A stretch of DNA of 61,367 nucleotides from Paludibacteraceae bacterium (lineage in GTDB: Bacteria > Bacteroidota > Bacteroidia > Bacteroidales > Paludibacteraceae), in the NCBI GenBank assembly GCA_017477325.1, contig JAFUWV010000007.1, forward strand, positions 1-61,367. Reading direction: 5' to 3'. The notes under the pieces were generated by a model. That model worked only from the letters and a program-made list of their open reading frames with translations. It was not told the origin of the DNA and ran no database searches. A program made the translations under genes and the position numbers. Positions within the stretch are counted from its first letter, which is position 1. The number at the start of each line of letters is the position of its first letter. This document shows positions 3,522-23,532 of this stretch, piece after piece.

Positions 3522-3561
3522 GGTGTTTAATAAATTTAGTGTGTTTATTAAGATTTCGGGG

Positions 3562-3593
3562 CAAAGGTATGCAATATATTTCAATAAAGCAAA
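3562..3593 (-). promoter_or_regulatory. Promoter of the S74/T9SS gene
   Basis: On the minus strand TTTG (3590-3593) is followed after 20 nt by TACCTTTG (3562-3569), the Bacteroidota -33/-7 pair. It lies 41 bases upstream of the ATG at 3521 and supports that start. Confidence 0.7.
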
Positions 3594-3656
3594 TAAAATG
3601 TACAATATTGACAAATTAGAGGTATAGAATGAAAATACGGTCAAAGAGCAAAACAG

Positions 3657-3718: not shown

Positions 3719-4519
3719 TTATTTTGCCCACTGCGGTATTACAGTGAGTCCGTCGAGGGCGAAATAGGTAGGAGTGAGGAATCCGTATTCGTTCTTGTCG
3801 GTCGATTCCATAGTGAAGGTAATGCCGAAGCAAACACCGAGCGGAGTGAGGTCGATCTTTGCCCATTCCTCGTTTATAAAGGTTTTGCCGTCGCGGAAGT
3901 CAGCGAGATAGTACTTTACCTCATTGCCTTCTACAACCTCGTTGTTTTCGTTGAGTGCTTTGACAGTAAGCAGCAGATAGTCTCCGTCTTTGAATGCCCG
4001 TGCGTCATAGGATCCACCGTTTTTGAGTGTTGACACCACTTGTGCGGTGTTGGTCAGATAGACGGCTTGCGGTTTGTAAGAGTCGGCCCCTGTGAATGTG
4101 ATGTCGCTTGTGCGGTTGAGTTCTCCTTTTGTAGCATCGTAGTAGTCGCCCCAGTAGCATGTCATGTAAGGAGTGCCTTCTCCATTGAGTCCGCCTTTTG
4201 TTATTGCCGACTCAGGCAGAGTGGCGTCTGCTTTGTTGTTTTTGCTGACACCGTAGCCCATGTAGTAGGTGGTTTCGTAGGTCTGACCTTCGAAAACATA
4301 CTGCGAGACAGCGGCTCTGTGGTGGAAGGTGAACGTCTGTGCTACGAAATCGTCAACGGCAGTGCTGTAGAGGCCAGACCACAAGCCGTCGTCATCATAG
4401 CTGAGGCTAGTGGTAGTGTTATTCAGATCGAGGGTCCAGACTGTGGTTTCAGTTCCGGAGTTGCAACTTGCGAGGAGCACTAACATGAGTGCTGCAACGC
4501 CAAAAATAGATTTCTTCAT
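3719..4519 (-). CDS. DUF4465-domain lipoprotein, probable surface B12-associated protein
   Basis: The 266-aa protein has a lipoprotein signal (MLVLLASC, Cys19) and a body typical of DUF4465: Y-Y-M-G-Y-G-V-S near residue 87, YMTCYWGDYYDA, the YLTNTA strand near 150, and LADFRDG...EWAKIDLTPLG toward the C terminus. DUF4465 proteins recur in Bacteroidota vitamin B12 loci, and from memory the described B12-binding BtuH lipoproteins belong to this kind of protein; I could not verify that link. It is the second gene after a cobalamin riboswitch, 52 bases behind the preceding gene, and ends at a clear terminator. Role inferred: capture of corrinoids at the outer face of the outer membrane. Confidence 0.8.
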   Translation of the reverse strand: MKKSIFGVAALMLVLLASCNSGTETTVWTLDLNNTTTSLSYDDDGLWSGLYSTAVDDFVAQTFTFHHRAAVSQYVFEGQTYETTYYMGYGVSKNNKADATLPESAITKGGLNGEGTPYMTCYWGDYYDATKGELNRTSDITFTGADSYKPQAVYLTNTAQVVSTLKNGGSYDARAFKDGDYLLLTVKALNENNEVVEGNEVKYYLADFRDGKTFINEEWAKIDLTPLGVCFGITFTMESTDKNEYGFLTPTYFALDGLTVIPQWAK

Positions 4520-4571
4520 TTTGTTTGTTTTTTGATTGTTATTGTTAGTATTCTTAGTTTTTCAATTTTCA

Positions 4572-9174: not shown

Positions 9175-9218
9175 ACAAAAAAATGTTAGCGGATTTCATG
9201 AGATGGAATCCGCCAACA
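9175..9218 (-). terminator. Terminator of the giant-protein operon
   Basis: On the minus strand TGTTGGCGGATT pairs with AATCCGCTAACA (arms 9207-9218 and 9184-9195; one G-T pair) around an 11-nt loop and is followed by a T run (9177-9183). It lies 44 bases past the OmpA-family stop codon and closes the 14-kb operon. Confidence 0.8.
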
Positions 9219-9261: not shown

Positions 9262-10470
9262 TCACTTCGGCAGGACAGTAATACGGACGATCCGATTGAG
9301 TGATGTCTTCTCGTAGACTTGCTCACGAGCACCCAGAGGATTGATTGTGATTTTGCTTTCATCTACGCCATAGTCATTGACAAGAATATCCCTAACACTC
9401 TCAGCACGTCGTTTTGCCAGTTCATCGTTATATTCGACTGACCCTGTTCCTGCATCGCAGTATGCATCAAGACGCAGAGTAGCCTCGGGATAAGCGGAAA
9501 GGAATGCAGCTACGTTGTAGTACTGAGCCTCATAATCCTGTTTGGGTTTGTCGCTTCTGATAGCAAACTCTATCAAGCCGATTTGGAACGGTTGGTCGAA
9601 TGTGCCTTTCTTAGCAGCCTCGGAAAGATTCGAATTGGAAATAGGTGCAGCACGTTCAATAACAGTCTCCGTATTGTTGTAAACATAAACGGTATCCTTC
9701 TTGATATTCATGCGCTCTTTCTTTTCACGAATACCGAACTTATGGCCGCCAATATTATAGGTTGCACCTATAGTGAATGCCAAGTCAGCTTGCGTAACCG
9801 GACCGGCGACCTGCCTATGATAATCAGGCATAAACGCAGTGGACAACTCAAGATTGATATCCCAGTTCTCCGTAAGGCGATACTTACCTATCAAGCCAGC
9901 ATTGCCAGTCAAACAGCCACCACCGGTAGTACCATGTGACTTAACATCAAAGACCTGAAGATAACCCAAGCCTATGAAAGGGATGATGTCCCATTTCTGC
10001 GAATCAGCCCAACCTCCCTTGATGCAACTAAGGAGCGACAATGTGAAGTCCAGATGCGGATTAATATAGAATGCTTCATATTCGAGTGAACCATCAGACA
10101 TTACTCTCGGACTGAGAGGAGCATCCGAACTACCGATCAGAGAAAAATCGAATCCCCAATTGTTAGCTCTTTCGCCACTTATAGCACCTTTCCACCACAT
10201 ACTCTTCAGTTGTAAGCGGAATCCAAAATAAGGCATAATCCATTTACCTACAGTGACGGAAGTGTTAAGTCGCACACCGTTGCCGGCAACAACCTCCTTT
10301 ATAGAATCATTGAAAAGGATATTTCCGCCAAGTTGCAGGTCGATATACCAGTCATCCACACCTTTCCCGAAGCCATTATAAACGGTTTCAGCAGGTGCAT
10401 TCTCGTCCTGAGCGAAAGTTACCACGGAAACCAGGCAACTCAATAACAATAGAAATATTTTTTTCTGCAT
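9262..10470 (-). CDS. OmpA-family outer-membrane protein
   Basis: The 402-aa protein has a signal peptide (cut after VTFA), an N-terminal beta-barrel-like region (about 30-260) with alternating aromatic strands, and a C-terminal OmpA peptidoglycan-binding domain (about 295-402): AYPEATLRLDAYCDAGTG, then ELAKRRAESVRDIL with the Arg and Asp expected to hold diaminopimelate. It is the last gene of a five-gene operon, 5 bases after the lipoprotein gene. Family knowledge predicts that it spans the outer membrane and grips the cell wall. In this context I infer that it anchors or docks the large surface proteins encoded upstream. Confidence 0.85.
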   Translation of the reverse strand: MQKKIFLLLLSCLVSVVTFAQDENAPAETVYNGFGKGVDDWYIDLQLGGNILFNDSIKEVVAGNGVRLNTSVTVGKWIMPYFGFRLQLKSMWWKGAISGERANNWGFDFSLIGSSDAPLSPRVMSDGSLEYEAFYINPHLDFTLSLLSCIKGGWADSQKWDIIPFIGLGYLQVFDVKSHGTTGGGCLTGNAGLIGKYRLTENWDINLELSTAFMPDYHRQVAGPVTQADLAFTIGATYNIGGHKFGIREKKERMNIKKDTVYVYNNTETVIERAAPISNSNLSEAAKKGTFDQPFQIGLIEFAIRSDKPKQDYEAQYYNVAAFLSAYPEATLRLDAYCDAGTGSVEYNDELAKRRAESVRDILVNDYGVDESKITINPLGAREQVYEKTSLNRIVRITVLPK

Positions 10471-10475
10471 AAGTC

Positions 10476-10895
10476 TTAGATGGCTATAAAGTTAATAACT
10501 AATGGTTTGTCGGGTGTGCCTAACTGCGTATCCTGTTTGAACGGGAATACCTCCGTTCCAAGATACTTATATTGCGTTTTTGCACTCCAATATTGGAAAG
10601 TAATATTGACAACTTCATCCTCAGCAGCCAAAATCTGGATATAGAATATACCATCATACAAATTGGCCACACCGCGAATTTCCTCCCCCACAAGGGCGAC
10701 CATTTGGTCGTCCTTAGTGAGGAAAGGATTCAGGTTTTCCGGAAGCTGAATAGCTGCCGTCATACTAACCGAGTATTCCGCTTTATCCGTAAATGTCCAA
10801 TTGGGGTTATCGTATTTATTTACGTCATTGCCATTGTTACATGACATCATCGAAACGGAGATGATGAGAACTATTACATAAATGCTCTTTTTCAT
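10476..10895 (-). CDS. Lipoprotein sharing a domain with the giant T9SS protein
   Basis: The 139-aa product has a lipoprotein signal (VSMMSC, Cys19) followed by one small beta domain (about 40-139). Its order DDQMVALVGEEIRGVAN...VFPFK...LGTPDKPLVINF repeats the pattern seen twice near the C terminus of the neighbouring 3190-aa protein (D-x-I-x-A-x-x-x-G-x-x-x-G-x-A ... IPFK ... GTPDEPLEINF). I do not recognise a named family. It is placed between the giant gene (20 bases) and the OmpA gene (5 bases), which points to a joint surface assembly. An outer-membrane partner binding the giant is an inference only. Confidence 0.7.
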   Translation of the reverse strand: MKKSIYVIVLIISVSMMSCNNGNDVNKYDNPNWTFTDKAEYSVSMTAAIQLPENLNPFLTKDDQMVALVGEEIRGVANLYDGIFYIQILAAEDEVVNITFQYWSAKTQYKYLGTEVFPFKQDTQLGTPDKPLVINFIAI

Positions 10896-10915
10896 AATCG
10901 GATATTTTTTACGGA

Positions 10916-13900
10916 TTAATACTTAACGAACTTGGTTACTTCAACATTCTCACCATTAACAAGACGGAGGAAGTAGGTTCCAGCGCCCAAATCGGTGACA
11001 TTGATGCTGCGTACGTAAACATCGGAGCAAACAGCGGCAGGTGTCTCAATCAAGCGTTTGCCTACCACATCGTAGATTTCCAAGTATGTAGGAGCTTCTT
11101 GTTTGAGGACAGCAGTTACATTGATGTTACTTACAGCAGGAACAGGATAAACAGCTACGTTAGCAAGCGAACTTTCAGTTTCGAAGTTGATCTCGAGCGG
11201 TTCATCAGGCGTACCTGCCACAGCATTCGCTTTGAATGGAATAACTGTTGAACTGGTGTAGGTATCACCACTTCGAACTAACACGAAGTTAACTCCATTT
11301 TCGATATCTGAACCGGCAATCGAGATACACTGCAACTCATTGTTCTCATACGGAACGGCTACTGCCTGACCGCAAATCTCGCCATTGACAATAGCATAGA
11401 TAACATCGCCTTCTTGAACCATCGAACAATGTCCGAATACGCTCATATTGTACGGATAATTGCCGTTGATGCGGCGTACCGGAGCTTGATTCAATGTGCT
11501 GGCCTTGCTAGGATATGTTAACGTCTTATCATTATCAGGATCGATGTTCTTCAACATATAACCTTCAGTAGGTTTCATGTATTTGAGCGACCCAACCCAT
11601 TCATTACCAAAATACATTGCAAAGGCATTCTGCGACTTCACGATATCACCATTCTGCGCGTTATAACCTGCAAGAGCCGTCTTAACCGGCAAGGTATTCT
11701 GAGGCAGATAACCGATGTAGTTCCAACGATTGGCAGCAATAGTAATATTTACTTTGGTCGGGTCAACAGCATTACCGCTAACCGGCAGAACTTTATCAGT
11801 ATTCACGCTAACCATGTACATTCCCTTGATATCGAAACCAGTCAAGCCACCACCAATATTCCACATTTCATCTTTAGCAGAATAGGTAGCACTATGATAC
11901 AAGTCTTTCACTTGCTCACCACCCAGCCATTCGGTACCATTCAATGCAGTATGAATATCGTTTAAATCATCGTTTTGAAGGTTGAATGAAATCCAATTCC
12001 AGCCTTTCTTGAGTTCTATGTTATTGAAATACATTTCTCCGCAATCGAATAGAACCGGATTCATTGGTGTTCCATAAACCTTATTTTTGATGAAGGTGAT
12101 TGTCTGAGAAGGAACCGCGCTATAAATAGTACCGGTGCTTGCGTCATACATGCGGAATGTAAGCGGTGCAGTGCTATTCTGCGAATTACTATAGACAGTC
12201 AACAATACATAGTACATATCGGTAGCTTCGTTGTAGGTTGTTCTGGAATTACCCACACATGTCTTACCATCGAATGCAGCCAAAATATCGTTTTCATCCA
12301 TAGAGAAGACTCCGTCTACTCGCATCTGACCGAAGATAGACATATTATATTGGAAATCGCCAGGATTAACCTCCCATGCAGGTTCTTCGCCCTTAACCGT
12401 AACGTTGAGTGACAACGGCTCCGATACATTCTCAGCATCTACCAAATAGATGACTTCATTGTAGGTTCCTACATTCAAACCTGAGTTGACGGTGAACGTA
12501 ATAGTTGTAGACTTAGTCGGGTTGAGCGTACCAGAAGAAGGAGTAGCTGTCAACCAAGAAGGCAGATTCTCAATAGTGAAGTTTTGCACGTAACCACCCT
12601 TATTGGTAATACCAATCCGGAACTGATGATCTTCATATTGCTGCTTCGTAATAGATATCTCATCATCTTGCCACATCAACTGGTTGCGATCGATATAAGC
12701 GCTCCACGTAATCGGCGATAAGATAGAGTTGCCATTGAGATCGCGGATATCTTCTGCAGTAAAGGTAACAATTGTATTCTCTATGCGATAGTCATCTTCT
12801 TTCATGGTTATAATCAAAGCGTCGTTGTTGACTACAAAGTCGTAACGCAGTTTTGAAACAGAACCTTGTGTGCGAACCGGTGCAATATCAGAGCTTTGCA
12901 ACGTATTGCCACTGGATGTAGCCGAAAGAGTGTCGGTCACATAGTCTTTCGTGGTATATTGCAATTCCTGCACACCTTGATAAGTGATATAATGTTCGAA
13001 CGGATAATAGAGCAACAGACCTATCTCGTCACCATTAAGTTTCTGGTTGGAGAGTTCCTCCATTTGCGATTGCGTACGATAGAGTTTCCACAAACGAATC
13101 TCATCGATCTTACCATCAAAGAACTGGTCAGCCTTACGAGTTGTTTCTTGCGGATTAGTGTACCAAACACGTGCACCCGCATACATCATATCGCTCGATA
13201 TAGAACCTACCATATCAGCAGCAATATAAGTAATCATCCGGCCATCCATGTAGATGCGGGCATGACCGGTAGAACGACTGACAGTGAATGAGAATTGATG
13301 CCATTCGCCATCGCACCAGTCACCAGGAACTTCAGTTTCGTAGCCATTGTTGCGATAGCACAAAACACCATTTTTATTCCATCCTACCGAGAACAACTTG
13401 AACGGATCTTCAGCTACATTGCTAATACCATCACCGTTACATAACATTGTTGCATTAACTTGCTCCTTGTCGGTCTTGAACCAGAACTCAAGAGTATAAT
13501 CCATCTCTTCTGTAACAATAGCGGCAGAGGTATTGATGGTCAAATAACCCGACTTACCATCAAACTGAACGGAGTGACCATCAGGCAGTGCCCACTTGGC
13601 ATTTTCAAGTATCATGTTCACGCCACGAGCTTTGTCTTCGGTAGCAGAACCACGAGCCTCATCCATTGCATAATAACCGATCAGACCTACATCATTACCT
13701 GACAACTGAACAGCTGAATTAGCTTGCAGTTGTGAAGCCGTACGGCATGAATTCCATACACGGAACTGATCGACTTTACCATCGAAGTAATTGTCTTCGG
13801 AAGCGATGTCGCGACCTATCTGCAACTGACCAATACCTGTATATGGTTGAGCAACTTTCTGCTCGATTACTGCAACCCAGTTGACATAGGCCGTCAGGAT

Positions 13901-16900
13901 TTCGGTCTGAGAATCATAGGTTAGAGCTACGTTGTTCCAGCTACCTAACTGGAATGCTGCAGGACGATCAGACGTGTACTCATTTTTACCGAAGCGAACT
14001 TTCACATAATTATCAGAAGTAATTGCGAAAGCAAGACTTTGAGCGACATCACCATGGCTGAACAATGTAGCATTTTGAGCTTTATCGATAGTAATCCAAC
14101 CTTCAATTGTCAAATCTTTATTAGCATAGTTCTTTTGCAACTCAGTAGTCAGATAAGCACCTGTCCCATCAAGCTGAACCGATACATCGTGGTTGGTGGA
14201 AGCGCCATTGCGAATACCGGTTACCGTGAAGTTGTTTTCTGTCAGTAGGCCTTCAGCAATAGTTTCGTTAAAGTCGAGACGAATCTCATCCTCAACAGTG
14301 AGAATACCATTTGCAGGTTTGGCAGCACCAAATAGCCGCGGGTTGTACATATCCTTGATTCCGGATATAACAGCTGAAGGATTCTCATATAGTGTGTTGT
14401 TAATATTACATACAGATACCGCACGCAGATCATACTTCTGGTCTGGAAGTTCATCCATGAAGAAGTTGTAGGTCAACGTACCTGCATCAGATGCGAGAAT
14501 CATACGAGCTTCATTGCCTGCCTGAATAGCCAAATTATACAAAGTTGAATCGGCATACCAATAGCAGAGCGACGACCAATCATAATCCGACCCGGAAGCT
14601 GGTTTGTATTGGAACTCAATATGGTCGAAATCAGTGTAGTTAGCATCGAAATTGCTAATTTTAACCGGCAAATAATGCTTCTCCAGACCATTAACCATCG
14701 CCGTCTTGCACTTAGTGTTATACGTCCAATTATTGCTTGGGGAAACAATATCCAGATCAGTACATGTGGGCAAGAAGTGAACAGAGAATGTAATGGTATC
14801 GGCAATAACATCCAAGAAACTGGTAGGATCAGCTTGGCATTGCGATCCCAATACCACCTGAAGGTTATCGTAATTAAGAGCACGACCTTTTTCTACAGTC
14901 ATTGTCTTAACCAAAGTCTCGCCCGCTTTAACCAGGAAGATCAGCTCGAATCCTGTCACGGTGTTGCCATCGAACGAAATCATTGCGCCATCAGGGTTAC
15001 TCTCATCAACAGCTATAACCTTGAACCATTGGTCCTCACCCGTTTCCGAGTTATTACGCATATAAACTGTGAAATAAGCCGGTTCTCCGGAAGGAACATT
15101 CTCCATGAAGTTATTCTCCATAGAGATATATGGAACTTCCAAACGCATGGTAGGTTTGGTAAGCATTACGCTATCTGTCTTCAGACTTTTCAGTTTATCG
15201 GGGTCTTTTGCCATTTCTTTGTATATATCCAGATACTTGGCATAGTAAGCATCCTCATAAGGACAGGATGTTGCACCACCCTCAGTGACAAAGATGAAAC
15301 TGCTGAAATAATCTTTATCTTCGATAGCAGTAGAGTCAACCGTATTACCTTGACTTAAATTACCTTCGTAGTCATACTCCTCATCTTCCGACTTCCAATC
15401 CGGTTCGCGATAAACCGTTACAGACAAGTAGTCATCATCACCATCCTCAGCCAAAACAAATCCTTTGCAGTGGCTGCGCTCAGTCTCAGTTGTGAAGGTT
15501 CCACCTTGAGTAGTGGTAAGAGTCTCTTCCATTTTGTAAGATACAGCACTCTTATGACCATGTGAAATTTCTATATCTGATTCATAGCCTGCTGCTGCTC
15601 CCAGAGTGATGGAGAATGAACTTTCATGCGCCTTGCCTGCGGAGTAAGATTCGCTATATTCCATGCTTGCACCTGCTTGGAGCGAATAGTTCTCTACACG
15701 ATTCTTAGAATCTTTCTGAGCCATTAACTTCTGATACTCATTTCGTCCAAGTTCGTATTGCCATCCACGAATCCACTGGTTAATGGTATTAATTGTATCG
15801 ATGTTGGCATACTTAGTTTTGTTAGTATAAATAATATTATAGCTGGGACCATCCAAAGAACTTTCACTATTTCCAACTGTATTTTTATAACTATCCAAAC
15901 GAGAATCGGAGTTGGGCAAGCCAAAGAACTCGCTATCGGCAGGCCAATACGATACGTAGAAAATGGTATCGAATCTATCAGCCAAATCCTGCAAAGAGTC
16001 TATTTGAGCCTGGTCTCTATATGGAATCAGGAAACTATTACGGATCGACTCCATATTAGGAATAAGCGATTGCTCTATATAAACTTGAGGATAAGCAAAG
16101 GTAGTGCTGAACGACTGTTCTACATTTCTTCCTTTTGTTTGTACCAACACCCAGTCTTGCGGTGTGTCGTCGTATACTTTTTCGTATGCGTCCTCACCTC
16201 CTGCATTGTTGAATACTGACTTAGGCATAAGAGTAATATTGCCAGTACTACCGAATGTAATATTAGTAGAATATCCGATATAAACATCACCGTTAGCACC
16301 GACATACAAAGGATCATCACTTGTCTGGAAGTGGGTTGTGATTGTTGTTGTCGAAACTTTAGAATCCGATCCTTCATACTGCTCTGCATGGACAGCTCCA
16401 ATAGTAGCTGTTGTGGTTGCATCATCCTCTTGGACAGTTCCTGCTCCGAACCCGGCGAAGGTTTTAATTTCAAATCCCATCGCTATAGCTGCTCCCTGGA
16501 AACCTTCATTCTCAACCGAACCGGTATATGTAGAGGATTCAGTGAAAGTAACTCCCTTCTCAAGATAAGAATATGAGTTACTTCCCGGAGGATCGCGAAG
16601 CACTGTCAGCACTTTGTTAGGGCCAGCTGTTACGAAGTCGATACCCGTGTTCCAATAACCAAGTGTATAAACAGCACCATCTGTAAATGGAGGCACCCAA
16701 TCGAACGAAGTGGAAGAATCGCCATATTTTACTTTTGCCCAAATATGACTTTCTGCACTGGTAGGATCCAATTCGACAGATGTGAATTGATATATTCCAT
16801 GACCCAATGAATCTGCCTCAACTTCTTCTATCCGGTTGTTCAGCTCATTGGTAAACTCAACTGTTGCATCCTGAGTAGGAACAGAATCGGTCCAAACAGG

Positions 16901-19900
16901 GTCACCATTCTTGTCGAAATAGGTATAAACTTCGCAGATCTTCAAATCGAACGTATAACTGCCTCTTTGGAATACCGGTTTGCCGAACAAATAAGTATCC
17001 ATGCCAGCATCATAAAGCTGAGCAACATAAGCCTCATTGTTCCACAAACTGACCTTCGATTTCTCTTCTCCGAAATACGAAAGTTTCTTACCGTTTTCAT
17101 CCAACTGGCGAATATCAACAATCGGTTCAAAACGTTTGATAAACTTCATCGCTTTGTTACAACGAACAGTATCTTTTCCGTTTACCTCGAATGTGTCTAT
17201 CAATACTACGTTATCGAAATTGAAGTCTTGGAGTATTCCGAAGTCATAGTCTGTACCGTCAATGCGCATACCATAAGTGACAGGAGGCACATAAGCAACG
17301 AACTCACCGGTGGTATCGTTGACTGTAATTGTTATACCATCCTCACCGGTAGTCTGAGTATTAAACAAAGTATCTACATAGTGTGTGAACTGCTCTGTCT
17401 GCTCTTTAGACGCCAGTTTGTATTGACCTTGGCGTTTATGACTCAAAACCAGTTTCATGCCTTCACCCAAGTTGTTGGTACTGAGGCTTAAACCTACAGG
17501 ATAACTCTCTTGAATAACACCACCGGCAACACGTCCAATAAACTTAACACGAGTATTATCCCAGAGTTCGAGACCTGACAAGTCATCCTGATAATTGCGA
17601 TTCTGGCCATTACTCATAGTAATTTTTCCATCATTTTCGAAGACGTGACCATCTTTCACTACCTTAACCTCGTGAATTCCCACAGGAACTTGTATCATGA
17701 ACTGACCATTAGCATCGGTTTTGATTAGAGAGCCATTAGAATTCTTAACCTCTGAACCATCAATCACAAACCATGCGCCCTCTACAGGCATTGTACCACC
17801 TGTATAACGTACTGTACCGCTAACTTTAAAAGAACTCTCATCCTTGAAATTAACCGTATGGTTTTGAACACTCGGGCTAATCAAACGAATCTCACTGACC
17901 GGAACAAATGAGTGAACGCCCTTAAGCGGAGTGAGCGTATAAGCAGTGCTATTCCCATAATAAGGAACGCCAAGAATGGAATAAATACCACTCTTATTGG
18001 TTATGCCTTTGAACGACAACTGATTCGCAGTCGGGCACACATTGCTTGGTTGAGCACCAATCAATTGAACATGGTGCTTGTTATGGCCGGATATGGTGAA
18101 CGACATGTCGAACACTTGATCATCAAAAGTATAATCAAAATTATAGTATGCAGCCAAACCTTCTTCGTTTCCTGCCAAGTGACGCCCGTAATCACTTTCA
18201 ACAGAACTTTGAGAAAGTGCCAATGACCATACGCGAACTTCTTCGATATATCCTGCGTAAGCATTTCCCATTGTCATTGGGGAGTTAGAAGCATTCGGAT
18301 GATTAACTCCCTGGCGAGTACCAACCAAAAGACCATTGACATATAGGTGAGCCATCTTCGTATCAGAATCATAAACAGCAGTCAGTTGCGTATACATCGT
18401 GGTAGAAAGCGTTTCTGAGTCAACCGTCAAACGAGTAGAACCTATTTGGAAATACGGATGACCATTGTTGATACCGAGATCATACCTCTCCGGTTTTGTC
18501 AAAATATGTTGATCAGCAGTAGTTAATGCATCAGGCATAATCCATGCCTGAAGTGAAACCGAAGTCCCATTGTCTACCAACAAGTTGTTGTCTTTTACTT
18601 GACCATAAGCATCTTTGGCGAAATACATGGATTGTCCCTTTATTGTTTCAGTAGTGGACAAGCGTACTTCTACCGAGTCCTCAGCTTGACCATCGGGGAA
18701 TGTAACCTGACCATAGAATTCTCCTGTAGGAGTGCGGAAACCGGTTGCATAAACAGCATTGGATGATAATATGGAATCGGAGCAATTCAGCAAACCAATG
18801 ATTCTATAATCGTAGATATAACCTGCTTTAGCATTTGGATCGGACGTCATATAATCTTCAAAGACAGAAGCTCCATCCAATGTAGGCATGGTCTGCCAGG
18901 CGTCTTCACCCTCGCCATGCAAACGACGACTAATGGAGAATTTGTCGAACGTACCGTGTGATTTCCACTCTACTTCAATGCGGTCGGAGTAATAGCCCTT
19001 AGAAGCATCTGCACTTACCAAATCACCTATTTTACTCGGAGTAACAGGCTCTGTTACACATTTGTTTGCTATAAAGTTATTATTACCAGGCAATACAAAA
19101 ACTTCGTATTTATAGGTATTACATTTTTGGATAGCGCGATCTATATATTCCTTGGTTTCAATATCGTTTTTCGATAAGCCTGCGATTTCCTGGGATGTTC
19201 CTGTTGTTGTATTATTACGAACAATCATGAATCGGGAATCGGTACTCCATATATAGTCCATGCTATTATAATTCCAAGTTACTTTGATTGCGTCGTAACC
19301 GTCAGCTTCTGTCAGTACCGATGCTGCCGATGTAATCTGCACATGCTGATAATTAGGTTTAACATAAGTAGATTGACCAAAATCGAATCCCCATTGTGCG
19401 AGAGTTGTTGTACGCGTAATACGATAGTATATTATAGAGTCAGAGATGCCAGCGCTTGTCAGATTATCAATATACATATAACTGGTTTGCGAAGACGCAT
19501 ACGCTAAAGTAGTTGTTATTTTCTCCGCGTTGGTAAAGTTATCATGTATGGAGCGCTCTATAACGAAGTAGTCGGGTTCCATTGCTCCGGTTCCCGATTC
19601 CATATCCCATGACAGTTTCACAGTACCGCCATCCTGATATGCAGCTGAGAAATTTTGAATAGCCTGATAACCTTTGACGGCGGTGGAAATAGTAACTTCC
19701 TTATTTACTTTTTCACTGAATTTCAATGTTATCTTTTGCGATAGTGTTCCTCCTGATGCCATGCGGTCGGTTTGTTTGGTTAGCATAGCAGCCGAATTAA
19801 AAGGAGTACTATCCCAATAAAGATTGGTAGGCACAGTTCCACCAGTATAGTTCACCGTCATATCAAGTTTATTTACAGTATTGGAATACGAATAAATAAG

Positions 19901-20488
19901 TTTGAGATTTTGTCCGTTAATATCGGGCAGGGTTTTTCCCGGATTGATAGTTGCATCTCTCACCATTGAGCCCTCACCATCCTGGTCCTGTTCTATCCTG
20001 AAGTAGAAGTAGAAAGTAGGAGTATAGCCTAAGGCACTCAGTGGAGGATAGTAGTAGAAATCTGCAGTAGCTGCTGTACCGTCGCTAACATCCTGAGAAA
20101 ATCTTCCTGATGTTTTGAAATCGTTTCCAACCTTCACCCATCCATGAGTGGTATTACTAGGCGCATTGGAATAATCTACGTGCTCGCAATCGCTACAACC
20201 TTTCAGGTCCATGACCTTATGATCAGTACTATTCCACCTAGCCTGGATATAACTACCGGAGATCAACGATACGTCTTTGGCACTGTTTGTCGGGTTGTAA
20301 TAATACTTGAACTTGATATGGTAACGACCGTTTTCCGGTTCGAAATCAACGCTAGCCGATTTTGCAGGATCAATTTGATTCACATATTCATAATTGGTAC
20401 CGGCAAAACTAAGGTTGTTACCATACAAGACGGATAGCAGTGCAACCAGCACCACTTGAATCCACTTTTTGTTGATTAACCTTTTCAT
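10916..20488 (-). CDS. Giant T9SS-secreted multidomain surface protein (LamG, BACON-like, 3190 aa)
   Basis: A signal peptide (1-29) is followed by Ig/FN3-like modules (about 280-600), a LamG/jellyroll domain (about 620-795), a carboxypeptidase-regulatory-like domain (about 885-957), an unrecognised central part (about 1000-2070) with TVLRDPPGSNSYSYLEKG near 1297 and a Gly-rich hydrophobic stretch near 1330, two further LamG domains (about 2102-2273 and 2305-2492), a BACON-like module (PSWLTATPSSGTL, about 2640-2698), two copies of a domain shared with the adjacent lipoprotein (about 2711-2815 and 3008-3105), and a type A sorting domain (about 3115-3190). LamG and BACON modules usually bind glycans, so an adhesin or matrix-binding role is likely; no catalytic motif was seen. 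No internal stop interrupts 9.6 kb. Confidence 0.85.
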   Translation of the reverse strand: MKRLINKKWIQVVLVALLSVLYGNNLSFAGTNYEYVNQIDPAKSASVDFEPENGRYHIKFKYYYNPTNSAKDVSLISGSYIQARWNSTDHKVMDLKGCSDCEHVDYSNAPSNTTHGWVKVGNDFKTSGRFSQDVSDGTAATADFYYYPPLSALGYTPTFYFYFRIEQDQDGEGSMVRDATINPGKTLPDINGQNLKLIYSYSNTVNKLDMTVNYTGGTVPTNLYWDSTPFNSAAMLTKQTDRMASGGTLSQKITLKFSEKVNKEVTISTAVKGYQAIQNFSAAYQDGGTVKLSWDMESGTGAMEPDYFVIERSIHDNFTNAEKITTTLAYASSQTSYMYIDNLTSAGISDSIIYYRITRTTTLAQWGFDFGQSTYVKPNYQHVQITSAASVLTEADGYDAIKVTWNYNSMDYIWSTDSRFMIVRNNTTTGTSQEIAGLSKNDIETKEYIDRAIQKCNTYKYEVFVLPGNNNFIANKCVTEPVTPSKIGDLVSADASKGYYSDRIEVEWKSHGTFDKFSISRRLHGEGEDAWQTMPTLDGASVFEDYMTSDPNAKAGYIYDYRIIGLLNCSDSILSSNAVYATGFRTPTGEFYGQVTFPDGQAEDSVEVRLSTTETIKGQSMYFAKDAYGQVKDNNLLVDNGTSVSLQAWIMPDALTTADQHILTKPERYDLGINNGHPYFQIGSTRLTVDSETLSTTMYTQLTAVYDSDTKMAHLYVNGLLVGTRQGVNHPNASNSPMTMGNAYAGYIEEVRVWSLALSQSSVESDYGRHLAGNEEGLAAYYNFDYTFDDQVFDMSFTISGHNKHHVQLIGAQPSNVCPTANQLSFKGITNKSGIYSILGVPYYGNSTAYTLTPLKGVHSFVPVSEIRLISPSVQNHTVNFKDESSFKVSGTVRYTGGTMPVEGAWFVIDGSEVKNSNGSLIKTDANGQFMIQVPVGIHEVKVVKDGHVFENDGKITMSNGQNRNYQDDLSGLELWDNTRVKFIGRVAGGVIQESYPVGLSLSTNNLGEGMKLVLSHKRQGQYKLASKEQTEQFTHYVDTLFNTQTTGEDGITITVNDTTGEFVAYVPPVTYGMRIDGTDYDFGILQDFNFDNVVLIDTFEVNGKDTVRCNKAMKFIKRFEPIVDIRQLDENGKKLSYFGEEKSKVSLWNNEAYVAQLYDAGMDTYLFGKPVFQRGSYTFDLKICEVYTYFDKNGDPVWTDSVPTQDATVEFTNELNNRIEEVEADSLGHGIYQFTSVELDPTSAESHIWAKVKYGDSSTSFDWVPPFTDGAVYTLGYWNTGIDFVTAGPNKVLTVLRDPPGSNSYSYLEKGVTFTESSTYTGSVENEGFQGAAIAMGFEIKTFAGFGAGTVQEDDATTTATIGAVHAEQYEGSDSKVSTTTITTHFQTSDDPLYVGANGDVYIGYSTNITFGSTGNITLMPKSVFNNAGGEDAYEKVYDDTPQDWVLVQTKGRNVEQSFSTTFAYPQVYIEQSLIPNMESIRNSFLIPYRDQAQIDSLQDLADRFDTIFYVSYWPADSEFFGLPNSDSRLDSYKNTVGNSESSLDGPSYNIIYTNKTKYANIDTINTINQWIRGWQYELGRNEYQKLMAQKDSKNRVENYSLQAGASMEYSESYSAGKAHESSFSITLGAAAGYESDIEISHGHKSAVSYKMEETLTTTQGGTFTTETERSHCKGFVLAEDGDDDYLSVTVYREPDWKSEDEEYDYEGNLSQGNTVDSTAIEDKDYFSSFIFVTEGGATSCPYEDAYYAKYLDIYKEMAKDPDKLKSLKTDSVMLTKPTMRLEVPYISMENNFMENVPSGEPAYFTVYMRNNSETGEDQWFKVIAVDESNPDGAMISFDGNTVTGFELIFLVKAGETLVKTMTVEKGRALNYDNLQVVLGSQCQADPTSFLDVIADTITFSVHFLPTCTDLDIVSPSNNWTYNTKCKTAMVNGLEKHYLPVKISNFDANYTDFDHIEFQYKPASGSDYDWSSLCYWYADSTLYNLAIQAGNEARMILASDAGTLTYNFFMDELPDQKYDLRAVSVCNINNTLYENPSAVISGIKDMYNPRLFGAAKPANGILTVEDEIRLDFNETIAEGLLTENNFTVTGIRNGASTNHDVSVQLDGTGAYLTTELQKNYANKDLTIEGWITIDKAQNATLFSHGDVAQSLAFAITSDNYVKVRFGKNEYTSDRPAAFQLGSWNNVALTYDSQTEILTAYVNWVAVIEQKVAQPYTGIGQLQIGRDIASEDNYFDGKVDQFRVWNSCRTASQLQANSAVQLSGNDVGLIGYYAMDEARGSATEDKARGVNMILENAKWALPDGHSVQFDGKSGYLTINTSAAIVTEEMDYTLEFWFKTDKEQVNATMLCNGDGISNVAEDPFKLFSVGWNKNGVLCYRNNGYETEVPGDWCDGEWHQFSFTVSRSTGHARIYMDGRMITYIAADMVGSISSDMMYAGARVWYTNPQETTRKADQFFDGKIDEIRLWKLYRTQSQMEELSNQKLNGDEIGLLLYYPFEHYITYQGVQELQYTTKDYVTDTLSATSSGNTLQSSDIAPVRTQGSVSKLRYDFVVNNDALIITMKEDDYRIENTIVTFTAEDIRDLNGNSILSPITWSAYIDRNQLMWQDDEISITKQQYEDHQFRIGITNKGGYVQNFTIENLPSWLTATPSSGTLNPTKSTTITFTVNSGLNVGTYNEVIYLVDAENVSEPLSLNVTVKGEEPAWEVNPGDFQYNMSIFGQMRVDGVFSMDENDILAAFDGKTCVGNSRTTYNEATDMYYVLLTVYSNSQNSTAPLTFRMYDASTGTIYSAVPSQTITFIKNKVYGTPMNPVLFDCGEMYFNNIELKKGWNWISFNLQNDDLNDIHTALNGTEWLGGEQVKDLYHSATYSAKDEMWNIGGGLTGFDIKGMYMVSVNTDKVLPVSGNAVDPTKVNITIAANRWNYIGYLPQNTLPVKTALAGYNAQNGDIVKSQNAFAMYFGNEWVGSLKYMKPTEGYMLKNIDPDNDKTLTYPSKASTLNQAPVRRINGNYPYNMSVFGHCSMVQEGDVIYAIVNGEICGQAVAVPYENNELQCISIAGSDIENGVNFVLVRSGDTYTSSTVIPFKANAVAGTPDEPLEINFETESSLANVAVYPVPAVSNINVTAVLKQEAPTYLEIYDVVGKRLIETPAAVCSDVYVRSINVTDLGAGTYFLRLVNGENVEVTKFVKY

Positions 20489-20496
20489 ATATTGAG

Positions 20497-22938
20497 TTAT
20501 TTAGAAATTTGCTTAATAGCTATAACAACGAATTTATTAGATTTGACGACTCCTTCTATGTGTCCGCCATTTATCAAGAACGAAGAAGCGAAGTCATCGG
20601 CCTCTTCGTTAGAGGTCCAAACCGTCAGATTCTCAAGTGAGTTGGCTCCTTGAGCAACAAAGACAGGATTAATAAGATCTAATGCATGGTATACTTCTTC
20701 TATCTCTGCAGTAGAAGGCAGATACCATCCTATGCCGGCACTTGCTGCAGCTTGGAAGGCAGGATAGTCAAACAGTTGAGAAGCTACCAAAGCTTGGTTG
20801 TCAGAACCGTTTGCATAGGTTGCTCCTATTGAGATACCCTCTTTGCCCCATATATATGCAGACGGAGTTTTAACTTGTGCCAAGTTGATCACCTTAGCTT
20901 CTGATCCACCCGGTGCTACGTAGTAAACAACACCTACTGCAGTATCGTTTTCTTTGTAAATCTCACCTATTGAGAACAAATTCTTCTTATAGGTAACCAC
21001 AACTTTCGTATCTTCAGCAATACGCTTAATGATTATCTGATTCAAATCACGAGCAGAAGCGGTTACATCCACGTCATCCACCTTGATTGAATATAATCCG
21101 TAACCCTCGATGGTCAATATGTCTTTTACGAAATCGCAAAGATAACCGACTTTTACAGATGATGTATCGTTTATAAAATCACCCGGGAGAGTATCGTTTT
21201 CAATGCTTGTGATATATGTCACAGTTTGTTGCCCAAGCACTACATCGATCTCGAAGCTGGTATGACCTGTACCCGTAGTATCAACTACGAAGTCGAGAAA
21301 AGTCACGTTTTTATCAGTAAAGTAATACGACGGACTATCCACTGCATTAACCAATACTTGCTTAACGCCCCATCCTTCTGCGGGATATATTTCGAAAGAA
21401 GCATCATTGTAGAGAGGAACCAGAAGTTTTCCGCTGTTACTCATCATGCCGGTACTTTCGGAGACAGTAAAGGCAGGATTAGGATAGTTGTTGAATCGAA
21501 CTTCAACCAAGTCGATATTGGCAATGTTTTGAGCAATGTAGGATGCATTTAACCATTTTGGTATTCCGTCGCCACCCATAACCAGTAAATCTCCGGCATT
21601 TCCGGGCTCCAGCACGTGCCACGTATTTCCATTGGGATCGAAATACATCAATGCGCCAACTTTAGATCCTGTCGGTTTGTCTTGAAGATCCTTCCAGTTT
21701 CCGCTAAAGCCATAGGTATCGACAGAATCCTTAATGTTAGGGCGGTTGGTCAGGTCATAGTAACTTCCTGTAAAGTTATTATACAATGCCACAGAGTCAC
21801 GAATATTCGGTCTGTTCTTCAACAGCGCATAATCGTTTTTTTCGTATGCAGCGACAGAATCAGGGAATGAAGGTTTGTTCTGCAAGGCCTGATAATCGAC
21901 TACTCCTGCCGAATATTTCTCCACACTGTCTTTGAAGTTAGGGCGGTTGTACAAATCGTTGTAATCGCTTGTACCCCCAGTACCAATTGAAGATGGTCTG
22001 TCAGTCAAGTCATAGTAACTTCCCGTGAAAGCCACAGTAGCGAAATTCGGAACGTTGGTAAGTTCGTTGTAATTACCACTGAAACTATAAGCAGCCACCG
22101 AGTCATGAATATTCGGGCGGTTGGTCAAATCGTTATAACTACCGCTGAAAGTACCATCTACTGAGAGGTTAGGACGGTCGGTCAAGTCAAGATAACTACC
22201 TGTAGCAGCCACACGAGCCAAAGTGGGTTTGCCACTAAGATCTTCATAATTGCCACTGGTGGCTACTTTTGCCAGTTCGGGTTTGTTACTCAATTCATTA
22301 TAGTTACCACTTGTAGCGACCGACGCCAGATTGGGTTTGTCGCCTAAGTCATTGTAACTACCGGTTATAGCCACAGTAGCGAAATCCGGACTTCCACTCA
22401 GATCGTCGTACCTGCCGCTAGTAGCTACAGTAGCTAAGGCGGGAGCACCACTCAAATCTTCGTACTTACCACTAAAACCAATGTTTTCCGGCACATCCAC
22501 CAGACTATTATAAGAAATTGTGCCGTTCACCTTCTCCGCCGTCTGTGCATGGAGGGCGTACGGCACGCTTAATAGTTGGGTGGTTGTTTGGTTCACAAAA
22601 TTGAACCCGCCATCGACATCTACTGCAACTTGTAGAAAATAAGGACCTTTCGACCAGTCAATATCCGCGAAGGCTCCTGTTACCGGCGTACCTCTGCCGA
22701 TGTTGAGGCTAATCAGACCATTGGCATTGGTTTTCCCGGACAAGTTCTCTGCGTAGACAGCCGATCCATCGGCACTGCCCTGCAGAATACTTATCCGCAA
22801 AGTGATGTTTCTGTTTGTCGCTAAATTGCCCTGAGCGTCTCGTATGACCGATTGGAAGGTCATAGCGTCAGGCACTTGAGCGAAGAGCACGCTACTTATA
22901 ATCAATGAAAGTAGCGCTACTAAGCATCTCTTCTCCAT
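20497..22938 (-). CDS. Exported protein with about 15 tail-fibre-like Y-x-D-L repeats and a C-terminal DUF1566-like domain
   Basis: The 813-aa product starts with a signal peptide (to LFAQ) and a conserved Bacteroidota module, MTFQSVIRDAQGNLATN to LLSVPYALHAQTAEKV (about 22-137). Residues 140-430 contain some 15 repeats of about 18-22 residues of the form [SN]-Y-x-[DE]-L-x-x-x-P-x-[LFI], alternating with VAxxG or DSVxxY linkers; such repeats occur in phage tail fibres and bacterial trimeric fibres. The C terminus (about 730-813) carries GIGWYLPSTAEIEEVY...VWTSNEE, resembling DUF1566-type lectin-like folds. I see no type A sorting domain. It lies 8 bases upstream of the giant gene, so the two are co-expressed. 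Predicted as a fibrous surface protein. Confidence 0.75.
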   Translation of the reverse strand: MEKRCLVALLSLIISSVLFAQVPDAMTFQSVIRDAQGNLATNRNITLRISILQGSADGSAVYAENLSGKTNANGLISLNIGRGTPVTGAFADIDWSKGPYFLQVAVDVDGGFNFVNQTTTQLLSVPYALHAQTAEKVNGTISYNSLVDVPENIGFSGKYEDLSGAPALATVATSGRYDDLSGSPDFATVAITGSYNDLGDKPNLASVATSGNYNELSNKPELAKVATSGNYEDLSGKPTLARVAATGSYLDLTDRPNLSVDGTFSGSYNDLTNRPNIHDSVAAYSFSGNYNELTNVPNFATVAFTGSYYDLTDRPSSIGTGGTSDYNDLYNRPNFKDSVEKYSAGVVDYQALQNKPSFPDSVAAYEKNDYALLKNRPNIRDSVALYNNFTGSYYDLTNRPNIKDSVDTYGFSGNWKDLQDKPTGSKVGALMYFDPNGNTWHVLEPGNAGDLLVMGGDGIPKWLNASYIAQNIANIDLVEVRFNNYPNPAFTVSESTGMMSNSGKLLVPLYNDASFEIYPAEGWGVKQVLVNAVDSPSYYFTDKNVTFLDFVVDTTGTGHTSFEIDVVLGQQTVTYITSIENDTLPGDFINDTSSVKVGYLCDFVKDILTIEGYGLYSIKVDDVDVTASARDLNQIIIKRIAEDTKVVVTYKKNLFSIGEIYKENDTAVGVVYYVAPGGSEAKVINLAQVKTPSAYIWGKEGISIGATYANGSDNQALVASQLFDYPAFQAAASAGIGWYLPSTAEIEEVYHALDLINPVFVAQGANSLENLTVWTSNEEADDFASSFLINGGHIEGVVKSNKFVVIAIKQISK

Positions 22939-22962
22939 TGGAAATAAAATTATTTGTGAATA

Positions 22963-23439
22963 TTATTTTTTGATTACTTGACAGCCTGCACCTACTTTTC
23001 CGTTTTGCAGTAGACGCAGTGTATAAGTGCCTTGCGGATAACCGGTCATATCGATTTCCATAGGCAACTTAGGATCGAAGCGCTTGCTTTCTAACAATTG
23101 TCCTTGAATGCTAAACAACTCGTAATCGACATCTCCTTCAATAGTACTCACAACATTGATTTGAAGCATCGACGACGTCGGATTAGGATAAACAGCAATG
23201 GTCGTTCCTGCCATAGCCGGAATCTCGTGCAATCCGGATACCAGCAATGTGAAAGTTTGCTGAACGCCAATTTCTGCAGAACCAGTTTCACCAACCGCAA
23301 GACCGGCAACAGATTGACCTACAGAAAAAGCCACCTGATCGCCATCACCTCCAGCAGGAACAACAGCAATTTGAGCGTGTGTAATACATGTGCAAGTAGA
23401 CATGAATAATAGAAGTGAAAAACGGTAAATGTTCTTCAT
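22963..23439 (-). CDS. Small T9SS type A sorting-domain protein
   Basis: The 158-aa protein consists of a signal peptide, a short beta module (QVAFSVGQSVAGLAVGETG...IGVQQTF, about 35-70) and a complete T9SS type A sorting domain (about 80-158: IAVYPNPTSSMLQINV...DYELFSIQGQLL...YPQGTYTLRLLQNG). Such tiny cargoes with little beyond the sorting signal are common in Bacteroidota and have no known activity. It is the first gene of the five-gene operon; 24 bases separate it from the repeat protein. After sorting-signal removal only some 60 residues would remain on the surface, so it may be a structural subunit or anchor-like peptide (inference). Confidence 0.8.
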   Translation of the reverse strand: MKNIYRFSLLLFMSTCTCITHAQIAVVPAGGDGDQVAFSVGQSVAGLAVGETGSAEIGVQQTFTLLVSGLHEIPAMAGTTIAVYPNPTSSMLQINVVSTIEGDVDYELFSIQGQLLESKRFDPKLPMEIDMTGYPQGTYTLRLLQNGKVGAGCQVIKK

Positions 23440-23500: not shown

Positions 23501-23532
23501 TAAAGGTATTTCTATTTTTTGATATACACAAA
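23501..23532 (-). promoter_or_regulatory. Promoter of the giant-protein operon
   Basis: Minus-strand TTTG (23529-23532), 20 nt, then TACCTTTA (23501-23508), one base off the consensus -7 box. Transcription would start near 23494 and leave a leader of about 55 nt. No other promoter-like match was seen inside the closely packed genes down to 9262. Confidence 0.6.

Follow-up and report, generated by a model that had tools for sequence, protein, structure and literature searches.

A five-gene block of a Paludibacteraceae genome encodes a predicted MAT-like fibre module, a giant T9SS protein module and an OmpA-type protein

The gliding adhesin operon of Flavobacterium johnsoniae encodes SprB, SprC, SprD and SprF and combines a large T9SS adhesin with an outer-membrane partner; SprB is a type B T9SS substrate with SprF as its carrier, as described in two sources (PMC12635249, PMC9870892). 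For the MAT fibres of Bdellovibrio, the relevant paper states that the surface element bound by the MAT N-terminal domain awaits identification (PMC10769870). Surface-exposed Bacteroidota lipoproteins with a lipoprotein export signal are described in a third report (PMC5080379). The locus described here has points of likeness to each of these systems. It lies in a window of 61,367 nucleotides (contig JAFUWV010000007.1, positions 1 to 61,367) of Paludibacteraceae bacterium; the host is an uncultured gut-type bacterium. A first-pass annotation of the window had stated that no described system was known with this exact set of five genes, and the literature search agreed: among open-licence papers only unrelated or neighbouring papers were found, with no prior description of either the five-gene set or the giant-lipoprotein pair.

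Five ORFs adjoin on the minus strand, at 22963-23439 (P0001), 20497-22938 (P0002), 10916-20488 (P0003), 10476-10895 (P0004) and 9262-10470 (P0005), and the ORF ends leave intergenic gaps of 24, 8, 20 and 5 nt, as had been claimed. The single promoter proposed for the start of the block was located at 23502-23532 on the minus strand as a pattern match, TTTG-N20-TACCTTT, to TTTG-N20-TANNTTT, which we take to be the Bacteroidota promoter consensus. This pattern had 16 matches in the window versus 2.25 expected and a maximum of 8 in 100 shuffles, and no second minus-strand match was found inside 9262-23439. The single intrinsic terminator proposed at 9175-9218 (minus strand) also held, with a fold of −18.6 kcal/mol (z −3.8; 0 of 200 shuffles equally good) and a U run after the stem. 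Generic scans exhibited no excess over expectation, with 36 sigma-70-type sites (38.1 expected, no excess over shuffles) and 6 terminator-like sites of the short-loop type (11.1 expected), and listed neither the operon promoter nor the operon terminator. The sigma-70 consensus is the wrong one for a Bacteroidota host, and the terminator was probably missed because its interrupted stem is unfit for the scan pattern. The five genes most likely constitute a single transcription unit, which would yield one transcript.

The gene products were as the first-pass annotation had described them. Two of the five (P0001 and P0003) carry T9SS type A sorting domains, which scored above cut-off, and P0003, with 3190 aa, also has three LamG domains; the other three are a protein with some 15 tail-fibre-like repeats, a lipoprotein and an OmpA-family protein. 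P0001 (158 aa), a proposed base or export partner of the fibre, has a signal peptide, an SVGQ domain (23215-23376, minus strand) and a sorting domain (22966-23193, minus strand; TIGR04183 at residues 83-158, 35.9 bits, cut-off 23; 34.9 bits versus a cut-off of 27 in a Pfam scan). The SVGQ domain comprises about 55 residues with the family consensus GG.A.G.GGS.SYSVGQ..Y.......GS...GVQQP.EI and was matched in its own genome by alignment A6 with an E value of 1.4e-11, P0001 itself being an A6 seed. The T9SS required for such proteins is represented in the same genome by an SprA_N match of 632.6 bits. A plasmid sequence search detected no match to P0001.

P0002 (813 aa) is most likely a MAT-like phage-type fibre with a Sec signal and without a T9SS sorting domain, as judged from domain scans. 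Its MAT N-terminal-like domain (22681-22905, minus strand) matched NF053851 with an E value of 2.5e-10 and a score below the curated cut-off of 60 bits, a level reached in none of 296 genomes of the phylum. A regular expression detected 16 repeat sites, 15 of them fitting the motif Y/W-x-x-L-x-x-x-P (21673-22512, minus strand; residues 143-422). The repeats matched phage tail proteins in 32 records, each with less than 60% identity; the phage-like shaft is predicted from sequence. The C-terminal tip (20518-20751, minus strand) had a nonsignificant Lcl_C match in the window (E 0.14), and seven P0002 homologues had Lcl_C matches with E values from 0.0044 to 3.9e-15; the Lcl_C-type tip of these homologues may match, at the level of fold, the C-type-lectin tip class of MAT fibres. 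With our own profile, a sorting domain was found on none of the 51 fibre frames of the family set, and TIGR04183 was absent among the families listed (25 of 29) in a scan of the last 130 residues of P0002 and of 47 complete fibre frames from the family; each of the four unlisted families matched a single protein.

The giant, P0003, contains three Laminin_G_3 stretches, BACON_2, a string of Ig-like domains and a T9SS type A sorting domain (10925-11152, minus strand; 37.2 bits), which scored 34.1 bits in the Pfam scan (cut-off 27) and 38.5 bits with TIGR04183 (cut-off 23). Profile searches detected two copies of a domain termed p4, at 12044-12373 and 11174-11473 (both minus strand). Complete giant frames ranged from 3023 to 3854 aa, and at least two p4 domains were present in 87 of 90 distinct frames longer than 2900 aa; the other three frames are truncated at one end. 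P0004 (139 aa) is a free-standing p4 domain with a lipoprotein signal, ...SVSMMSC, read from the sequence. Of the 64 p4 proteins with a length of 110-300 aa, 63 had such a signal. A p4 lipoprotein gene lay within 300 nt downstream of the giant in 58 of 88 cases, and no p4 gene was present within 1800 nt downstream in 27. The 88 giants all differ in sequence and have 700 nt or more of downstream DNA available; some of them share a genome. The giant and the p4 lipoprotein form a module (module B) that also stands alone. The last product, P0005 (402 aa), has an N-terminal region, in which the barrel model OMP_b-brl scored 13.6 bits, below its Pfam cut-off of 28.7, and an OmpA C-terminal domain of the peptidoglycan-binding type (9295-9540, minus strand; PF00691 at residues 311-392, 39.9 bits, cut-off 27.2). 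The seven best relatives among the sampled family genomes (E values no higher than 2.7e-36) were on contigs that also had giant or p4 matches; weaker relatives had E values of 1e-14 to 1e-20.

Our preferred reading, to which we assign a probability of about one in two, is that the block encodes a surface adhesion apparatus that depends on the T9SS, was put together from two pre-existing modules and is probably expressed as one transcription unit. P0001, which carries a sorting domain, would either carry the fibre through the T9SS or hold it at the surface, and its SVGQ domain would most likely bind the N-terminal domain of the fibre. The giant would be secreted and attached via its own sorting domain, with the LamG, Ig-like and BACON domains reaching out. 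P0004, being a free copy of the C-terminal p4 domain of the giant, may sit on the outer membrane and dock to the base of the giant, and P0005 would fix this base to the cell wall via its OmpA domain. The contacts between these proteins, their exposure at the surface, the ligand and a joint action of the modules are predictions from gene and domain content.

The five-gene order was found in seven other loci (L087, L088, L099, L100, L104, L049 and L050), with 27-73% identity where BLAST aligned the proteins, and nine genes flanking the block in the window had no match at an E value of 1e-5 in the available stretches of these loci. Recurrence of the same order between unmatched flanks indicated that the grouping is not accidental and that gene order is conserved beyond the window. 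The first-pass annotation had named independently scattered homologues as the sign of an accidental unit; parts did occur apart in related genomes, but the intact order recurs as described. Because the parts occur apart, the block does not form an indivisible whole and instead comprises two modules and an OmpA-type protein. The annotation's proposal of a surface appendage or adhesion complex with a cell-wall anchor fits all five proteins and the recurring order, but not as a single unit. A fibre was recognised in 5 of 80 giant loci and an OmpA relative in 7 of 80, some of these loci being short; the rarity of both beside giants indicated that neither is needed for the giant. Conversely, the longest ORF in 40 fibre loci was no more than 2130 aa, indicating that no giant is present beside those fibres. 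OmpA joins the modules in a subset of loci.

These data also bear on the possibility that fibre, giant, lipoprotein and OmpA-type protein form a single stoichiometric appendage with the fibre atop the giant. The recurrence of all five genes in this order, at eight loci if the window is counted, is consistent with such a machine, and so is the GC3, which is low to a similar degree throughout the block (0.35-0.47 versus 0.57-0.65 in the seven other window genes for which it was computed). We consider it unlikely, however, as those 40 fibre loci have no giant and 75 of the 80 giant loci have no recognised fibre, so that, as a rule, neither module depends on the other.

The pairing of a small T9SS protein with the fibre was analysed in 150 genomes of the family and in the phylum. 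The 51 fibre frames come from 80 family regions, which cover part of the MAT_N matches of the family. For 47 of them an ORF began or ended no more than 300 nt upstream, one was cut by an edge and three had no such ORF; in two of these three (L048 and L197), a small T9SS protein lies upstream at a greater distance and was not counted. The phylum test comprised 69 matches in 66 of the 76 positive genomes, excluding that of the window (three genomes gave two each), with an ORF within 300 nt upstream in 56 and none in 13. The upstream ORF had a T9SS domain in 42/47 family and 45/56 phylum cases. With our own sorting-domain profile, it was positive in 41/47 and 45/56 cases, respectively, versus 19 of 304 control pairs drawn from the same family regions; addition of a 260-aa limit gave 39/47 and 44/56 versus 2/304. 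SVGQ domains were cut by motif boundaries, with 38 and 42 kept and 3 dropped. The converse search used the A6 profile, built from 22 family and 10 phylum domains whose position upstream of a fibre had been established beforehand. In the family genomes, 42 of 44 SVGQ matches were followed by a MAT_N match no more than 800 nt away, and so were 20 of 22 after removal of the 22 seed hits. From the fibre side, 42 of 77 family MAT_N matches had an SVGQ match within 800 nt upstream. Some of the small proteins have diverged too far to be caught by the SVGQ profile and some loci are cut, and some fibres may be partnerless. The small T9SS protein and the fibre form a two-gene fibre kit (module A), which is also found alone and is present in many of the phylum's genomes.

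A mirror-tree test gave a correlation with the fibre domain of 0.70 for the SVGQ domain and 0.69 for the sorting domain (partial values, 0.31 and 0.38). As the SVGQ domain does not surpass the sorting domain in tracking the fibre domain, coevolution lends no support to the proposed SVGQ-fibre interface; coevolution with the fibre that was specific to one domain of P0001 was not seen. This outcome, the separability of the modules and the detection of SVGQ upstream in only 42/77 fibre rows would all be expected if the block were a bundle of independent adhesins that are co-transcribed and share a related ecology but never touch, the small T9SS protein being merely another secreted protein. Such independence is improbable in our view: the SVGQ domain is almost confined to positions upstream of MAT_N fibres, with or without the seeds, and the absence of a detected sorting domain on fibres argues against independence within module A.

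The core of the giant was compared with known structures. AF2 predicted two long beta hairpins, one at residues 1306-1388 (16325-16573, minus strand; mean pLDDT 81.5, low at the tip) and one at residues 1608-1680 (15449-15667, minus strand; low confidence at the tip), with paired strands of 35-40 residues each. The strands of hairpin 1 were nearly free of proline, were rich in Ser/Thr (25 and 31%) and had conserved lengths of 38-40 and 38-43 residues in 59 rows. These properties would suit a contact-dependent attack or predation device in which the core is a membrane-inserting beta barrel and the fibre and LamG domains choose the target, as would weak Foldseek rows that include secretin barrels and Cry51-type proteins and the role of MAT fibres in prey recognition by Bdellovibrio (PMC10769870). 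We regard this as very unlikely. The TM-scores of those Foldseek rows were 0.05-0.12, and the hairpin tips were of low confidence. Hydrophobic alternation exceeded the Ig-like control (0.21) only in the first hairpin strand (0.45, sd 0.43), with 0.15-0.19 in the others. In hairpin 2, the length of the first strand region varied from 35 to 87 residues. Long hairpins, moreover, occur in stalks too. No pore-former was present among the Pfam families listed (25 of 30) in a scan of 59 core homologues, and a profile search of PDB sequences gave no convincing solved relative. Foldseek on PDB, Foldseek on viral models and VIA-align, in which most of the aligned length falls in the Ig-like part (model residues 520-641), gave nothing convincing. 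The core had no confident known fold among the searches made, and the lack of a match is not evidence of a new fold. Equally remote is a further extension, in which a phylum-wide two-gene display of phage-like trimeric fibres, with a dedicated small T9SS protein as escort or anchor of a fibre unable to be secreted on its own, is joined here to a giant with a membrane-inserting barrel core; the result would be a contact-dependent device, anchored in the cell wall, for recognising and breaching other cells in the animal gut. That the genes are accidental neighbours in one assembly, as parts occurring apart elsewhere might suggest, is contradicted by the same order in seven further loci without matching flanks and can be set aside.

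Within the preferred two-module reading, the pairing with a small T9SS protein offers a candidate answer to how MAT-like fibres are held on the cell, since the SVGQ-T9SS protein, encoded almost only upstream of MAT_N fibres, becomes a concrete candidate partner for the N-terminal domain in Bacteroidota. If true, this would provide a T9SS route for proteins without a sorting domain. The giant-lipoprotein pair looks like a widespread surface system: in the genome collection, relatives of the core of the giant are encoded by 546 stretches.

Like the SprB operon, the block codes for a large T9SS adhesin together with a predicted partner in the outer membrane, but it differs in that its giant has a type A domain and its outer-membrane protein is OmpA-type. 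Membership of the SprB gliding adhesins was rejected on two counts: P0003 matched TIGR04183 (type A) and no type B model at an E value of 0.1, and the 18 families listed for P0005 at the same E value, nearly all OmpA-type, did not include PorP/SprF. The profile library contains both a PorP/SprF-type model and a type B sorting-domain model. The fibre resembles the MAT fibres of Bdellovibrio in its related N-terminal domain, long phage-like repeat shaft and predicted C-terminal tip (PMC10769870); it differs in the lower score of that domain (40.4 versus a cut-off of 60 bits) and in its pairing with a small T9SS protein. The p4 lipoproteins resemble the export-signal lipoproteins of PMC5080379 in that 48 of 63 have at least two acidic residues among the six that follow the Cys, a count in which related sequences are unweighted. 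P0004 itself, with C-NNGNDV and one acidic residue, has a poor export signal that does not fit the K-(D/E)2 or SDDDD-like motif at +2 to +6 (C-NNGND), and its domain is, unlike theirs, common to a giant T9SS protein. P0005 is similar to OmpA-type proteins in its C-terminal domain, which is above cut-off, and is distinguished from them by being encoded beside a T9SS giant and a p4 lipoprotein.

The five minus-strand ORFs lie where the first-pass annotation had placed them (9262 to 23439), separated by gaps of 24, 8, 20 and 5 nt. A single promoter had been claimed, and one match was detected at 23502 to 23532 to what we take to be the Bacteroidota promoter consensus, with no further match on the minus strand within the block; this pattern is over-represented in the window (16 matches versus 2.25 expected). 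A strong and significant hairpin 3′ of the last gene agreed with the proposed terminator. In the first product, P0001 (158 aa), a signal peptide and a short domain precede a T9SS type A sorting domain. The fibre protein, P0002 (813 aa), consists of a signal peptide, a MAT-related N-terminal domain, 15 repeats with likeness to phage tail proteins and a C-terminal tip; this tip is Lcl_C-like in seven homologues, while that of P0002 itself gave no significant match. In the giant, P0003 (3190 aa), LamG sequence was recognised in three stretches, alongside one BACON domain, a string of Ig-like domains and a sorting domain. P0004 is a lipoprotein of 139 aa, and in P0005 an OmpA domain was recognised, the barrel match being weak.

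The same five-gene order was found again in seven other loci (L087, L088, L099, L100, L104, L049 and L050), whose giants have 40 to 73% identity to P0003 over the aligned part. In L104, the OmpA gene extends as far as the end of the contig, and a gap of 332 nt separates the first two genes; in L100, L049 and L050, the P0001 protein was identified by its two domains, having no BLAST match at 1e-5. Nine of the genes that neighbour the block in the window had no match at E 1e-5 in the available sequence of these seven loci, the flanks of which are short. The five-gene unit is real, conserved and more modular than the first-pass annotation held, and its most general part is the first two genes. 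Among the window's named relatives are many Paludibacteraceae, besides other Bacteroidales, with rumen, horse faeces and other gut material as frequent sources, judging from titles.

Relatives of P0002 were detected in 55 of 150 family genomes (a few rows being matches solely to other parts of the protein), and the NCBI model of the MAT N-terminal domain (MAT_N) matched in 77 of 296 phylum genomes. The ORF directly upstream of the fibre carried a T9SS sorting domain in 42/47 family cases and 45/56 phylum cases, the latter being the loci, among 69, with an ORF within 300 nt upstream. With our own T9SS profile, the upstream ORF was positive in 41/47 family and 45/56 phylum cases versus 19/304 neighbouring gene pairs used as a control; adding a size limit of 260 aa gave 39/47 and 44/56 versus 2/304. 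With the same profile, all 51 fibre frames, of which 47 have a complete end, were negative for a sorting domain, and the NCBI T9SS model was absent among the 25 of 29 families listed for the ends of those 47 and P0002. Common to the small upstream proteins is a domain, termed SVGQ, some 55 residues long. It is nearly confined to genes upstream of MAT_N fibres, since 42 of its 44 matches in the 150 family genomes, and 20 of the 22 that were not profile seeds, have a MAT_N match no more than 800 nt downstream. One exception is close to a contig end and the other (E 0.0097) falls within a longer frame. The converse count is weaker (42/77 MAT_N rows with an SVGQ match within 800 nt upstream), partly because some small proteins, such as those of L178, L180 and L181, are too divergent for the profile. 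In a mirror-tree test, the SVGQ domain stood out no more than the sorting domain did. Successive pairs of small T9SS protein and MAT_N fibre, or several consecutive fibre genes, were seen in L181, L184, L204 and L205. Two MAT_N fibres, attributed to L198 and L205 from the likeness of their ends, have a beta-glucanase-like end (endo-1,3-1,4-beta-glycanase EglC model, two members, best E 5.2e-12), as if the tip were an enzyme.

Relatives of the giant's core were present in 52 of 150 family genomes and encoded in 546 stretches of the genome collection, of which the best 80 were retained. The 85 complete distinct frames had a median length of 3220 aa (range, 3023 to 3854 aa). Of the 88 distinct giants for which the downstream sequence sufficed, 58 were followed within 300 nt, and 61 within 1800 nt, by a gene for a lipoprotein of the P0004 type (p4). 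Of 90 distinct giant frames, 87 also contain two or more copies of the p4 domain, and the other three are cut at one end. A lipoprotein signal was found in 63 of 64 p4 proteins of 110 to 300 aa. Among the best 80 giant loci, some of them short, an OmpA relative was seen in only 7 and a fibre in 5. Two giant genes stand in tandem in L063 (3-18660), and one contig with a five-gene locus carries a further giant, split across two frames (L067 1210-10252, G083:C70). In L054 and L078 (G092:C220 and G076:C150), the OmpA relative has as its neighbour a frame of about 500 aa in which the p4 domain matches four times; in G092 this frame lies between that relative and the giant. In the p4 lipoproteins of L056, L059, L075, L079, L093, L102 and L115, a long charged spacer, coiled-coil-like by eye and as if forming a stalk, separates the lipid cysteine from the p4 domain. 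Many distant giants (among L116-L165) have no Por_Secre_tail-like end and share short tails, e.g., ...RNNEKYDVTGKKL or ...GVYIYNGKKQVIK. The window's own genome (1.89 Mb, 71% complete) encodes a second, distant giant of 3414 aa (L065 3720-13964, G000:C6); the 1800 nt downstream of it contain no p4 gene, and a p4 lipoprotein relative lies elsewhere in the genome (G000:C11:296154-296576).

An AlphaFold2 model of P0003 residues 1265-1905 (59 rows; mean pLDDT, 81.5) consisted of long strands, with two hairpins flanking a helical stretch and hairpin tips of low confidence. Hairpin 1 is nearly constant in length, almost proline-free and 25 to 31% Ser/Thr; hairpin 2 is less constant. Strand alternation exceeded that of an Ig-like control region in the first strand only, and fold searches with the core returned no confident match; the core is a possible, weakly supported barrel former. 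The C-terminal 596 residues were modelled as Ig-like/PapD-like domains (pLDDT, 90.2).

Third-position GC (GC3) was 0.35 to 0.47 in the five-gene block versus 0.57 to 0.65 in seven other computed genes; the minimum among other window ORFs was 0.48, apart from two near the contig end, a papain-like protease (166-2136; 0.21) and an S74 protein (0.36). Low GC3 is no general trait of giants, because values of 0.51, 0.55 and 0.62 were obtained for the second giant of this genome and those of L087 and L088. Neither the fibre nor the SVGQ domain was detected in 12 sampled genomes of the window's genus; giants were present in five, with identities of at most 39% in the segments listed. The simplest reading is that the five-gene block may have been acquired as one piece.

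SprA is present in the window's genome. The likeliest step is that the P0001-type protein escorts or holds the fibre, because the fibre has no T9SS signal of its own and the N-terminal domain of the co-encoded T9SS protein is nearly fibre-confined. The giant would reach the surface through its own sorting signal, its base probably being steadied by the lipoprotein and OmpA protein. The LamG and Ig-like domains and the fibre tip suggest binding of glycans or surfaces.

Unlike P0002, the S74 fibre-like proteins of this genome bear their own sorting domain: that at 2265-3644 (minus strand) combines, in a single chain, an endosialidase-chaperone (Peptidase_S74) domain with a T9SS sorting domain behind it, and a second S74 match in this genome (G000:C5:4733-4960, in a 449-aa frame) has a sorting-domain match at 4334-4558 on the same contig and strand. 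Bacteroidota surface lipoproteins are described as having acidic residues just after the cysteine (PMC5080379); most p4 lipoproteins resemble them in this respect (two or more such residues in 48 of the 63 signal-bearing proteins), whereas P0004 does not. The N-terminal domain of P0002 is related to that of the Bdellovibrio mosaic adhesive trimer fibres at 40.4 bits, under the curated cut-off of 60. No description of the exact five-gene set was found in the open-licence literature, in agreement with the first-pass annotation, and the block combines known kinds of part: a T9SS substrate, a MAT-like fibre, a lipoprotein and an OmpA protein.
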